Source of the DNA: Cytospora piceicola
Taxonomy: Eukaryota > Ascomycota > Sordariomycetes > Diaporthales > Cytosporaceae
DNA length: 64,000 nt
NCBI GenBank assembly: GCA_023375675.1
Contig: JALQBC010000022.1
Coordinates: forward strand, 434,001-498,000
Reading direction: 5' to 3'
The notes beneath the pieces were generated by a model. That model did no database searches. It saw nothing but the letters and a program-made list of their open reading frames with translations, and was not told the DNA's origin. Of this stretch, positions 51,758 through 58,371 are shown one piece after another. The translations under genes and the position numbers were made by a program. How positions within the stretch are numbered: the stretch's first letter is position 1; each line of letters starts with the position of its first letter.

Positions 51758-52930
51758 ATGAACAGCAAAAACTGGGGCGATAGTTAGTAGCTTCTTGTTT
51801 CTCAATTTTGTCCTCCCCTCTTTCTGTTCGTCGTGCCACCTGCCGGCAATCCATGTTTCCTAAGCTCATATCGAGCCATGCTGTCCGCCCAAACAACCGG
51901 CCAGCCCCATGAGAGCTTCAGCTTACTGATAATCTATTGTCGCAGAAGCCGACAAGGACCTCTTCTTCACCATCCTGTCCGTCAAGAACATCGGTGTTAT
52001 CAGCGGCTCAGAATGGACCACAATCGGTGGCCATATGCGGACCCTTGGCTATGGCTTCACTAATGAAGGTTGCCGGTAAGCTTGGTCCTCCTCTGTCGCC
52101 CCCCGACTGCCGCATTTCTCGTAATCTTAAATTTGTTGTTCTTGCATTCATTCTTTTTTATTCTTCGTATCCTGGTGAACAACCTTTATTCCTGTTCCGT
52201 AGGCGTATACTTTATCGGGTCGTTGCTTCCATGTTGCTGAGCTCGACTGCGAACCTTGTGTGTGCAATGCGAGACTGCTTGGTGTTGGCTGCTGGCATCT
52301 CGCACAGAGAAAGCCCTGGTTGCCCACGTTTAGGTCCTGTCTTAACGAGTGGTTCCTGCTCATCCATGTTTCTTAGCTAATATCACCACCAGTCAACACT
52401 TCCAAGGCCTTCGTCGAGCTCAGCAGAAGGCTGAGGCTAACGGTGCCCTGAGCGAGAATCCTCGGAAAATCGACCCTACTTTGAACCCAATCACTCGTCG
52501 GCCAGGCCCTGGTCGGGGGCGGCCAAGGAAGTCCGCGGGCGGCGGTCCTGATTCCGAGAGTGCCAGTCCGGGCCAGGTACAGGCTGAACTTGAGCTCCAG
52601 GACCAACAGCAGCAGTCTCAGCCGGAGCAGCTTCAACAACAAGCCCCCATGCAGCCGCAGCCACCCATGGACCCCAATGTTGGGCCTGCACCAACTCCCA
52701 TGATGGATGCTGCACCGCCACAGGTTGAGGCTTCGCCGCCGCAGCAGCCCATGATCATGCAGACAGAGGGTGTGTCTTTCGAAGATGCGAGTGAAGAATC
52801 TGATGAGCATGCTGCTAAGCGTCCTAAACTCGAAGAAAACCATGACCCCGCCCTGAACGACGAGGCCATCTTGAGTGCCCTGGCAGCTCACACCCAACCC
52901 GGCTCTGTCGAGCACTACAATCCCGAGTAA
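51758..52930 (+). CDS. Myb-like DNA-binding protein with AT-hook (cluster member 4)
   Basis: Three exons: 51758-51782 (25 nt), 51946-52075 and 52393-52930; 230 residues. Donors are GTTAGT and GTAAGC, acceptors CGCAG and CACCAG; the second intron is long (317 bp) and phase 2. The domain runs N-W-G-D-K-A-D-K-D-L-F-F-T-I-L, then S-E-W-T-T-I-G, then G-Y-G-F-T-N-E-G-C-R and, across the splice, Q-H-F-Q-G-L-R-R. Just behind it is P-G-R-G-R-P-R-K-S, an AT-hook core that binds the minor groove of AT-rich DNA. The rest is Gln/Pro-rich, with an A-K-R-P-K-L NLS-like motif and acidic patches. It is the structural model for the truncated exons that follow: they end at the same phase-2 donor. The two-part DNA-binding layout suggests a chromatin-binding regulator. 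Confidence 0.8.
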
Positions 52931-53877: not shown

Positions 53878-54099
53878 ATGGCCAATAACAATATCAGTGT
53901 TGCTGGCTCTGACGAGCCCGCGTTCAGTACCACGAAGGTCGGAGGTGCCAAATGGAATGACGATGCTCACCAGGCCCTGTGTGGTGCGCTTATTGAAGTC
54001 ATTGAAGGCGCTGGAGCTTCCTGGAGAGCCCATCTTGACCGTATGGTGGAGCTCATGGGCGAGCGTGGGCACAACTTCACTCGAGAGGGCATTCGGTAA
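53878..54099 (+). CDS. truncated Myb-like exon (array unit 1)
   Basis: If unspliced, 73 residues ending at TAA. The frame has the first part of the domain, K-W-N-D-D-A-H-Q-A-L-C-G-A-L, then A-S-W-R-A-H-L, then G-H-N-F-T-R-E-G-I-R. The stop is formed by reading one base into a consensus donor (CG|GTAAGT, phase 2, exon end 54095), exactly where member 4 splices to its helix-3 exon. No matching 3' exon is visible in the next 250 bp. It could be a decaying duplicate, a micro-protein, or an alternative first exon spliced to the 3' exon at 56343. Confidence 0.5.
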   Translation: MANNNISVAGSDEPAFSTTKVGGAKWNDDAHQALCGALIEVIEGAGASWRAHLDRMVELMGERGHNFTREGIR

Positions 54100-54344
54100 G
54101 TAGTTGATACTGTTCATTCGTCATAGTCCCAGTGGCCACACCTGTTGCTGGGTTTATCTGGTTGCCTATACGCCTACTTTCCAATCTCTCTACATTCCCC
54201 AAAACTCGCAAGCTTGAAAGCTTCCAGCTTCTGTTTCCCACTCCTCAAACTTGCATCACTCTCCACCACCACCTCAGTTACCACCAACTACATCAAGCAC
54301 CCATCGTCAACAAACATCACCCGTCATCCACGAAACACTACAAT

Positions 54345-54500
54345 ATGCCTTCTACGTGGGACGACACTCGCATGAAGGACCTCATGGAGGAGATCTACTT
54401 TCGCACGGTTCCTCAGCTTTCGCAGGATGACAAGGATGCCATCGTCAAGGGGATGAAGCAACGCGGCCACACGGACCTCACCTGGAACGCGATTCGGTAA
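54345..54500 (+). CDS. truncated Myb-like exon (array unit 2)
   Basis: 51 residues if unspliced: S-T-W-D-D-T-R-M-K-D-L-M-E-E near the start and H-T-D-L-T-W-N-A-I-R at the end. It ends at CG|GTAAGC, phase 2 (exon end 54496), again at the family splice position. A possible vestigial tail lies at about 54640-54695: a splice to an ACACAG acceptor would give R-P-A-T-K-R-R-S-E-P-P-N-T, basic like other members' tails but without helix 3. The status of this unit (gene, exon or relic) is open. Confidence 0.5.
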   Translation: MPSTWDDTRMKDLMEEIYFRTVPQLSQDDKDAIVKGMKQRGHTDLTWNAIR

Positions 54501-54876
54501 GCTGCCTTGTTACGAGCTTTGCCCAGTGGCGCCATCTCCATGTCTGTTGTTTTCTTGCCCTCCAGGCCAATATGTCCTTCACTCATGATGTACCGTTTGC
54601 TGTGCTATTGCACCTTCGTGTTTCCCAGCGATAACACAGCCCTGCCACCAAGAGGAGGAGCGAACCTCCCAACACCCACAGCCGTTGAGCTCTCCGTTTC
54701 AGTTACCTGAGAGCGCTCTGCCGCATTGCTAGTGACTCAAAAGGCTTGTTTGCATTGTTTCCACCTCCGTTTCTACATCTACGTCCATTCCACCAACTTG
54801 GTTAGAGCATGAGTCTTCAGACTCCTTACACGCCTCTATTACAATCGCCAGTACGAACCACCACAACCAGCAGACC

Positions 54877-55038
54877 ATGTCTCCTAAGTCGAAGTCGATT
54901 TACGAGTCGCCTGGCTTCTGGCGTGATTTTGCCGTTGCGGCCTACGAGATCACGGCGCCCTCATCGGCAATCATGACTGAAATCATCGAGAAGGCCCATG
55001 CTATAGGAGGTTGGGACATCAACCAGAATGGTCTCTAG
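54877..55038 (+). CDS. truncated Myb-like exon (array unit 3)
   Basis: 53 residues if unspliced, ending I-G-G-W-D-I-N-Q-N-G-L then TAG. The stop overlaps a donor (TA|GTACGT, phase 2, exon end 55037). It carries P-G-F-W-R-D-F-A-V-A-A-Y-E and is clearly paralogous to unit 4, 333 bp downstream. The first helix differs from the W-D-D type seen in units 2, 5 and 6. No following 3' exon of the family was recognised. Confidence 0.5.
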   Translation: MSPKSKSIYESPGFWRDFAVAAYEITAPSSAIMTEIIEKAHAIGGWDINQNGL

Positions 55039-55209
55039 TACGTGTCGCCAAGCTGGCTGCTTCTTTCCCTACTTGGTAATTTTATCCGCGCCTGTAAACT
55101 TCCCCATTCATCCATCCGCCTACTCTGCTTTCTATCTCAACATCAACTTCAACTTCATCATCATATCCGACACTTTTCCCATACAACCACAACCAGACCA
55201 GAAAAAAAA

Positions 55210-55362
55210 ATGCCCCCTTCAAACTACGAAACGCCTGGTTTCTGGCGAGACATTGCCCTGGCTATGTACGAGCATTGGTCGCCGTCAAAGACGGATTTGG
55301 GTCAGATCACAGAGTCGGCCAAAGCGATTGGCGGTTGGGAGGTTACCGGTTCTGGTCTTTAG
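55210..55362 (+). CDS. truncated Myb-like exon (array unit 4)
   Basis: 50 residues if unspliced. P-G-F-W-R-D-I-A-L-A-M-Y-E and A-I-G-G-W-E-V-T-G-S-G-L align closely with unit 3 (Y-E-x-P-G-F-W-R-D at the same offset), so the two arose by tandem duplication. It ends TA|GTATGT, phase 2 (exon end 55361). Downstream, 55388-55440 has a block similar to the intron of unit 6, including a Q-L-Q-like helix-3 remnant out of frame with this donor, which points to a decayed 3' exon. Confidence 0.5.
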   Translation: MPPSNYETPGFWRDIALAMYEHWSPSKTDLGQITESAKAIGGWEVTGSGL

Positions 55363-55560
55363 TATGTTGTCAATCATTTTGTACCTTCAGGAAGGCTCCA
55401 AGCGGACGCCTCAACTACTCCAAACTCTAGCTCAGCAGCTTCAAACACCTCCTTCTCTTCTTCAGCTTCCTTTCTCCATATCAGTTTGACGCGTCTATGC
55501 CAATCTACAACACTACACCTACCACAACGAGTCCATCAGCACCAGATCACGCTCTACAAC

Positions 55561-55746
55561 ATGTCTGACCGTACCACTTGGGACGACAAGGCCCATCTTG
55601 ATCTGCTCATGGCCGTCCTGAACAGTGTCACACTCACCAACAAGGAGTGGGACAAGATCTTGGCCGATTTGCAGGCCAAGGGCTACCGCTACACATCCTC
55701 CGCTGCTATGTATGATCTTGCTACTGGCGCCTCCCCGTTCCATTGA
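55561..55746 (+). CDS. truncated Myb-like exon (array unit 5)
   Basis: 61 residues if read through. T-T-W-D-D-K-A-H-L-D-L-L-M-A-V-L, then K-E-W-D-K-I-L-A, then G-Y-R-Y-T-S-S-A-A-M matches member 4 helix for helix. A donor (AT|GTATGA, phase 2, exon end 55710) sits at the family splice position; translation past it gives a short unrelated tail ending at 55746. No helix-3 exon follows before unit 6 at 56027. Confidence 0.5.
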   Translation: MSDRTTWDDKAHLDLLMAVLNSVTLTNKEWDKILADLQAKGYRYTSSAAMYDLATGASPFH

Positions 55747-55794
55747 TTTCAGCGCGTCTGTTGCCTCCTACCTCCAAACTCCTCCCTTCAACCC

Positions 55795-55850
55795 CTCAAA
55801 ACTTACTTCCCACCTTCTACCTTCTACCTTCTACTTTCTACCTCCCACCT
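55795..55850. repeat. CCTTCTA-type pyrimidine repeat
   Basis: Several imperfect CCTTCTA/CTTTCTA units lie between array units 5 and 6. This could serve as a leader or polypyrimidine tract for unit 6. Confidence 0.65.
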
Positions 55851-56026
55851 TCCCACCCCTGTAAAGCCCACCGTCCCCAGCTTTTGCACTTTCCCAACAA
55901 TCAGCCTCCAAGCATCAACCACACAACCATCAACACGCATCTCATCAAGCTCCTGAGCAACCCACATCCACCCATAGCATATTTCTATCACGCTCAACTT
56001 GAACTTTCCCTTCCATAGAAGTCAGC

Positions 56027-56656
56027 ATGGAAACCCCTACCAAAGGCACCCCCTTCAAATGGGACGCCGAGGCCGAGCGTGACTTGTTCGCTGCTTGCCT
56101 CGTCGCGTCTGGTGAGCCCAAGGGCCCCACCCTCAAGAAAGCCATGGAGGTCCTCAAGGACACCTATGGAGAGCGCTTCACACAGAAGGCCGCTACCCAC
56201 CGCCTGTAATTGAACACTGACTTGCGCAACACCCACATCAAGGAAACTCCCAAGCGGGACGCTTCAACTAGCTCTAAGCTTACCATTCTCTACAAGTTTC
56301 GCGCCACTTAGGAAATACTGCTAACCCCACTCTCTTCTATAGTCAGCATCTTCAGAAGCTGAAGCGCAAGGACGGCGCTGCCGGCAGTGGCAGTGGCGAC
56401 GCGACCCCCCAGAAGCCCCGCGCGACTCCCAAGAAGCGCGGCAAGGCCGCTGATGAGGACCCTGGCACCGACTCTCCCAAGCCCAAGAAGCGTCGTACTC
56501 CCACGACCAAGAAGGCCCCTGTTTCTGAGGACCAGGACGACGAGGAGGAGAAGGGCTCCTTCTTCAAGAACGAGTCTGAGTAAGCTGGGTCTCCCTTTGA
56601 TTCTACGCGCACCTTGCTAACGTCCAGACAGCGATGCTCAAGACGGAGAGTGCTAA
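56027..56656 (+). CDS. Myb-like DNA-binding protein (array unit 6, complete)
   Basis: Three exons: 56027-56205, 56343-56579 and 56632-56656; 146 residues. Exon 1 carries F-K-W-D-A-E-A-E-R-D-L-F-A-A-C and T-Q-K-A-A-T-H-R-L, ending at a phase-2 donor (CT|GTAATT). Exon 2 begins with helix 3 (Q-H-L-Q-K-L-K-R-K-D) after the TATAG acceptor, followed by a tail rich in T-P, R-A-T-P-K-K-R and K-P-K-K-R-R NLS-like motifs, then acidic residues. A last 52 bp intron (GTAAGC, branch GCTAAC, ACAG) leads to D-D-A-Q-D-G-E-C and stop; reading through instead gives a 139-residue form. This is the only unit of the 53.9-56.7 kb array with a recognisable 3' half, and its exon 2 is in phase with every upstream unit. 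Confidence 0.78.
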
Positions 56657-57773: not shown

Positions 57774-58371
57774 CTAGATCTCACCCGAAACGAAAGGGTC
57801 AATCGTATCGGCAGCCTCCTCCTTGATCTCGGAGCTGACATCCTCGTGGACGTCCTCGTCGTCGTCGCCGGCGGCGGCGGCGGCAGTGGCAGTAGCAGCA
57901 GCAGCCGCCTTCTTGCCGCGGGGCTTTCTGGCGGAGCCGACCTTGCCGGTGTTCTTGGTGACCCTGGGGGTCTTGGAAGGCGTGTCGCAGACGCTTCCGG
58001 GGGTGGCGGCAGAGCCGCCGGTCTTTCCCCAGCCGAACTTCTTGCACATCTGGCGGTACATCTCCTTGGCGACGCGGTCGTTCTTGAGAGAAGCCTGGGT
58101 GGCGACGTTCTCCCACTGGGGGGTTTTCCGTGTATGTCAGCTACCCTGGTTGCCCTGTGTGGGTGGTGCTCCCAGTTGTCTCCTTGGGGCCTGTGGGGAA
58201 GGGGGGAGGAGGGGGAGGGGACAGGTATGTGCTTACATTGATCTTGGGCTGGTCCTCGATGTTCTGCATGATGATGGCAAGCAGGTTCATCTGTTTCTCG
58301 GAGGGCTTGCCCTTGGGGGTCTCGGGAGCGGCGCCACTGCCGTTTCCAGAATCGCTCTTCTCGGAGGCCAT
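57774..58371 (-). CDS. Myb-like DNA-binding protein (cluster member on minus strand)
   Basis: Two exons, 58237-58371 and 57774-58115; the 121 bp intron (GTAAGC...CCCCAG) is phase 0; 158 residues. The domain includes K-Q-M-N-L-L-A-I-I-M-Q-N-I and, across the splice, I-N-W-E-N-V-A-T-Q-A-S-L, then V-A-K-E-M-Y-R-Q-M-C-K-K-F-G-W. The splice falls immediately before the helix-2 Trp, as in member 3. The tail (C-D-T-P-S-K-T-P-R-V-T, R-K-P-R-G-K-K, an Ala/Thr run, acidic residues and I-K-E-E) resembles the tails of the 43338 and 60070 genes, suggesting these three are closer relatives. Confidence 0.85.

Follow-up and report, generated by a model that had tools for sequence, protein, structure and literature searches.

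In the vertebrate UGT1A locus the variable N-terminal part of the enzymes is encoded by first exons in tandem, which have separate promoters and splice to shared 3′ exons, and in the clustered protocadherins an array of variable first exons likewise precedes constant 3′ exons, with the promoter making the choice among them. To our knowledge, arrays of alternative first exons have been described in the large genomes of animals and plants. Also among the closest known systems are the GARP, or Myb-like, plant factors PHR1, LUX and ARR1; helix 3 of the GARP domain carries the motif SHLQK(Y/F)R. The literature that we searched, consisting of open-licence papers, yielded no tandem first-exon array in fungi. 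For Verticillium dahliae, alternative first exons have been counted among splicing events, in a passage that describes no array (PMC4035056).

The locus described here lies within a stretch of 64,000 nucleotides from Cytospora piceicola (contig JALQBC010000022.1, forward-strand positions 434,001 to 498,000; hereafter the window, in which position 1 is the first letter) and, as judged from relatives, is very probably one gene in which six tandem alternative first exons share one 3′ exon. It would resemble UGT1A in having tandem first exons for a variable N-terminal part and shared 3′ exons, whereas UGT1A makes a vertebrate enzyme and this locus would make a DNA-binding-like domain of roughly 60 residues, cut inside a helix, in a compact fungal genome. 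The likeness to the protocadherins lies in the array of variable first exons followed by constant 3′ exons; there, however, the variable exons encode whole extracellular regions, while each unit described here encodes a portion of a domain, which the constant exon is needed to complete. The array is new to us with respect to its host, its size and its cutting of one helix.

Architecture of the locus

The six units all lie on the forward strand, and each opens with an ATG, closes at a GT donor in phase 2 and has a length of 2 modulo 3. In order, the candidate first exons are U1 (53878..54095, donor GTAAGT), U2 (54345..54496, GTAAGC), U3 (54877..55037, GTACGT), U4 (55210..55361, GTATGT; a paralogue of U3), U5 (55561..55709, GTATGA) and U6 (56027..56205, GTAATT), the last of which is nearest to the shared exon. 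A preliminary description had named start codons at 53878, 54345, 54877, 55210, 55561 and 56027 and a phase-2 GT donor at the end of each unit; the start codons proved exact on the sequence and all six donors could be read, with the correction that the U5 donor had been put at 55710 and the last exon base of that unit is 55709. No internal stop or frameshift occurs in any of the six. The same description had explained the in-frame stop as simple read-through of the donor in four units; the effect is real but the count is five of six (U1–U4 and U6), the read-through of U5 running 12 codons past its donor.

Downstream of the units, on the same strand, lies the shared exon (56343..56579), which completes helix 3 with QHLQKLKRK and encodes a charged tail. 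Each of U1–U6 joins 56343 in an open frame that continues as QHLQKLKRK..., and the split codon, to which the unit supplies two bases followed by an invariant T, reads R, R, Y, Y, I and L from U1 to U6. The intron to 56343 would measure 137 nt from U6 and 2,247 nt from U1, the latter being long for a fungus. A further predicted intron between 56579 and 56632, with a branch-like GCTAAC at 56616-56621, would extend the gene past the shared exon to a shared last coding exon on the same strand (56632..56656, splice sites likewise predicted), which reads DAQDGEC and then stops. The arrangement found is accordingly a row of first exons in one phase, upstream of one constant 3′ exon.

That a single helix-3 exon, at 56343, is in phase with all six donors had been noted before and holds up, since the joins are open and no second acceptor appears. 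Among the 167 AG sites between 53800 and 56700 no second helix-3 exon was found between the units, the best other in-phase score being 12 against 46 at 56343. Across the 43.6-Mb genome, a strict pattern for the start of the shared exon occurs once, at 56343, and a looser pattern for the start of a helix-3 exon occurs twice, at 56343 and in the neighboring gene A, both patterns being of a kind that overlooks exons using other codons. A layout with one helix-3 exon per unit was also considered and ruled out, there being none between the units and none by exact patterns in the genome.

Detection and copy number

A profile based on 48 first halves from relatives other than Diaporthales (the 48 include P0040, which carries no taxon label), was run against the six-frame translation of the window and found U5 (E 1.6e-18), U1 (3e-10), U2 (3.7e-9) and, weakly, U6 (5e-3), while U3 (7.2) and U4 (0.31) were missed. 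With Diaporthales units added to the profile, the six units fell between 3.8e-18 and 3e-11, U3 being at 3e-11 and U4 at 2.3e-12. One shuffled and one reversed control gave a best E of 0.53 in the profile search. Because the profile finds the units while the controls give nothing below 0.53, we conclude that the array is beyond chance.

Each of U1–U6 has a single place in the genome, the U3 query also finding U4; for U1 there is one weak match elsewhere (E 0.12), with a stop inside it. The shared tail has no second copy in the genome below E 0.4, its sole weak match standing at E 0.42. Different units of the window are 13–34% identical to one another, and U3 and U4, at 54%, are evidently duplicates of each other (dN 0.39, dS 1.15, dN/dS about 0.34, from 45 codons only).

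Just upstream lies gene A (traced over 51758..52926, forward strand), a paralogue of ordinary layout with one first half and its own helix-3 exon. Its first-half exon ends at 52075 (the profile matches 51933-52076 at 2.9e-5), and its helix-3 exon, which reads QHFQGLRRAQQ, runs from 52393 to a donor-like site after 52926; the intron between them is identical to that of the array in place and phase. Gene A is a natural control for the array. Beyond the array, a small convergent gene on the reverse strand (57774-58371; MASEKSDSGNG...), with the later exon WENVATQASLKNDRVAKEMYRQMCKKFGW, has a similar Lys/Thr/Pro-rich tail and perhaps encodes another small DNA-binding-like protein.

Relation to known DNA-binding domains

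Joined to the shared exon, U1–U6 give a predicted three-helix Myb-like domain in which the splice point falls inside predicted helix 3, such that the half domain of a unit is without most of that helix. What varies is helices 1 and 2, the opening residues of helix 3 and the residue of the split codon. Myb-like is used here for resemblance and not as a family assignment, because no Pfam Myb model passes its cut-off; the best was Myb_DNA-bind_3 for the U5 join, at 15.6 bits against 23.6. Pfam gave no family for the array protein, a Myb model at E 0.01 was matched by none of 47 relatives, and none of the 21 genome matches to PF00249 lies in the array. For a model of the U5 type the fold matches were weak, and in the comparison with GARP domains the best E was 0.015, with HLQK aligned. 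The preliminary description had suggested that the layout would give one locus several DNA-binding specificities. Since the shared exon supplies most of predicted helix 3, this does not follow from the layout, and the use of different promoters or different partners is at least as likely a purpose.

Orthologues and unit order in related fungi

In the first two protein searches the candidates scored were those with the most words in common with the query, 7,988 in one search and 7,987 in the other. The best matches among named proteins come from Cytospora, then Diaporthe, Cryphonectria, Xylariales, Magnaporthales and Sordariales. Named Cytospora species contain an orthologue of every one of the six units, at 61–88% identity, and U6 reaches 90% in a jgi protein. 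Orthologues of U1, U2, U5 and U6 are found in Diaporthe at 42–78% and in the same order, and Cryphonectria has orthologues of U4 (52%) and U5 (57%). U1 is represented in C. mali, C. paraplurivora and Diaporthe, and U5 shares 25 of 49 residues with a unit of P0017 from Nemania serpens. Every unit has protein orthologues in two or more species, and we take the variable exons to be kept by selection.

The order of the units could be followed through gene models that contain more than one of them. U1-U2-U3 stand in one model in C. paraplurivora (P0022) and C. mali (P0033), U3-U4 in C. schulzeri P0051, U4-U5 in C. chrysosperma P0048 and C. leucostoma P0083, and U5-U6-tail in C. schulzeri P0001; Diaporthe provides U1-U2 (P0067, P0072, P0075) and U5-U6-tail (P0006, P0007, P0008), and Cryphonectria P0009 has a unit of U4 type, U5 and then the tail. 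Models spanning two or three units make up 20 of the 107 fetched proteins, and the 13 from Diaporthales among them keep the order U1-U2-U3-U4-U5-U6-tail. The array pieces carry neighboring locus tags in C. mali, C. schulzeri, C. paraplurivora and C. leucostoma; in D. amygdali the tags differ by two. None of the 107 fetched relatives has a second QHLQKL segment. We take the models that string units together to be mispredictions across a row of first exons. Entries for U1 that contain neither the tail nor a further unit end in EGIR (11 of 11), as would be given by read-through of a CG/GTAA donor.

Joins between first halves and the tail

In several relatives one tail is found with different first halves. 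The P. oryzae proteins P0054, P0076 and P0082 have tails that are 100% identical over 78–86 residues and first halves that are 22–33% identical, and a search with the P. oryzae tail alone returned 4 proteins of 28 candidates, namely those three and P0046, a model from another Pyricularia that strings three units together. The P. oryzae joins are annotations of different strains and may be predictions. In Xylaria flabelliformis, P0034 and P0038 have tails that are 88% identical and last units that are 32% identical. Among the tail pairs with at least 60% identity, drawn from 60 proteins after the removal of 14 (13 intron read-throughs and P0106), 10 of 18 carry different units, where a different unit is one below 42% identity, a threshold that we chose; these ten pairs are not independent, because three come from P. 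oryzae and a further three include P0046. Gene models of Cytospora and Diaporthe join U6 to the tail, and the joins to the tail in Cytospora (P0001, P0003, P0004 and P0005) are all by U6; among the scored candidates sharing most words, no Cytospora protein joins any of U1–U5 directly to the tail. As a separate observation, P0055 and P0058 (Triangularia verruculosa / Podospora pseudopauciseta) have tails that are 54% identical over 104 residues and first halves that are 12% identical, hinting that arrays may also occur in a group with laboratory models.

Transcript-like sequences bear on the same joins. Proteins designated 'lgn', which we assume to derive from contigs assembled from public reads, carry QHLQKL in 14 cases, of which 12 enter it from unspliced intron and two cleanly. 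Eleven of the 12 intron read-throughs are on contigs of 6.9–99 kb, and one (P0002) is on a contig of 915 nt. The first of the clean joins is P0016, on a contig of 2,086 nt from a Diaporthe-like fungus, in which a U1-type unit passes directly into the tail and no intron intervenes; its first half and the first half of D. batatas P0067 share 93% identity. The second, P0040, leads cleanly from a U2-type unit into the tail on a 932-nt contig. Judging from the small contigs and the missing intron, we take P0016 and P0040 to be assembled mRNA, bearing in mind that short contigs are not always spliced, because the 915-nt P0002 is unspliced. In Diaporthe, U1/U2 are annotated apart from U6/tail (P0075 and P0019; N8I77_006452 and 006450 in D. 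amygdali); the clean join of U1 to the tail in P0016 is thus what would be expected from splicing over the array.

Leaders, donors and intron elements

An A stands at position -3 before all six ATGs. The 130 bases before U2–U6 are C-rich and G-poor, lying at the 97.0–99.9th percentile of skew in the window, with U1 at the 86th; for U1 the A at -3 and the leader skew are weak signs. The leader composition fits a separate 5′ leader for each unit, the promoters themselves being putative. The donors of the distant units U1–U4 look stronger than GTATGA and GTAATT of U5 and U6, which fit the donor consensus less well, and we remark that stronger donors on the distant units are what long introns would want.

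Within 10–60 bases after each donor there is a loosely shared and often palindromic stretch, for example CCCAGTGGC and AAGCGGGACGCTT, and a complementary GCGCCACTTAGG stands before the shared acceptor at 56301-56312. Dscam-like docking offers a model for pairing between post-donor elements and a pre-acceptor site. The shared stretch scores 64.7, against 58.2 ± 1.5 for 15 plain shuffles; in a second test it does not go beyond dinucleotide shuffles, of which 13 to 63 of 100 reach it across six settings. Pairing with a core that was chosen by eye, post hoc, gave p 0.013 for U2 and 0.08–0.31 for the other five units, and the post-donor folds are not stable (z -0.4 to 1.5). The Diaporthe intron read-throughs P0028, P0037 and P0061 (SPSGEPN) could encode a similar stretch.

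Proposed organization and alternatives

The reading of the locus as alternative first exons with a constant 3′ exon, put forward in the preliminary description, is strongly supported by the joins, the unit order and the orthologues in relatives. Under this arrangement each first exon would have a leader and a start codon to itself, presumably with a promoter of its own, and would encode helices 1 and 2 together with the start of helix 3, and promoter choice would select the first exon. Because the first exons are without an acceptor, a transcript from any unit is expected to splice onto 56343, over the later units. The shared exon would complete helix 3 and add a lysine-rich tail, and the locus would yield six proteins that share the end of helix 3 and the tail while their helices 1 and 2 are exchangeable. 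We infer promoter choice, splicing in Cytospora piceicola itself and a nuclear DNA-binding function for this gene.

It is improbable that U1–U5 are instead small stand-alone genes encoding half-domain microproteins of 50–75 residues, for instance inhibitors. The frames of U1–U4 do stop right at the donor, unit ORFs that end there are deposited, and a conserved TAA could be retained for its role as a stop and not as part of a donor; however, such genes need neither a donor consensus nor a common phase, U5 reads on for 12 codons, and a half domain would have to act with most of predicted helix 3 missing. P0016, P0040 and the P. oryzae models, moreover, join units of this kind to the tail.

It is decidedly improbable that consecutive units are spliced together and then to the tail, to give a single long protein in which the half domain is repeated. 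The 20 of 107 fetched proteins with two or three units per model speak for such a protein, but the linkers between the units of these models range from none to 61 residues and are unlike in length and sequence, and 20 of the 23 internal units have a methionine at their start or shortly ahead of it, when an M is accepted anywhere between 13 residues upstream of the unit and 4 residues inside it. Of the three misses, two fall in P0046 and the third is U2 of P0033, whose M was assigned to the unit before it; small stand-alone genes could also retain methionines at unit starts. Halves repeated without the remainder of helix 3 would not add up to complete domains, and the P. oryzae models and P0016 join a single unit to the tail.

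Trans-splicing, in which the short transcript of each unit would be attached to a shared exon carried by a separate RNA molecule, would lead to identical joined products and would need no 2.2-kb intron. We nevertheless hold it to be highly improbable: no observed feature requires it, and it would not need the units to lie on the same strand, upstream of and close to the shared exon.

The plainer alternative offered in the preliminary description, that the units are decaying relics of tandem duplication, each without its 3′ exon, can point to the missing helix-3 exon between each of U1–U5 and the next unit and to the evident duplicates U3 and U4, but the fact that every unit is conserved contradicts it and was the ground for its rejection, the six units being free of internal stops and frameshifts, their orthologues standing at 61–88% in congeners and 42–78% in Diaporthe, dN/dS between U3 and U4 being about 0.34 (from the 45 codons only), and similar layouts recurring in several orders, a recurrence in related fungi that makes a row of dead copies very unlikely.

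Implications

Beyond Cytospora, the Sordariomycetes probably keep an old array, in which a transcription-factor-like gene swaps helices 1 and 2 by means of tandem first exons and retains a constant helix-3 exon. If the locus is such an array, gene models that string units together or give one unit hide a combinatorial choice within one small domain; the finding thus points to a fault of annotation, the deposited models in several species stringing units or giving one isoform. A conserved array in compact fungal genomes would be a small, tractable system for studying promoter choice and splice-site pairing, and it would allow one to ask what is gained from varying helices 1 and 2 while most of helix 3 is held constant.
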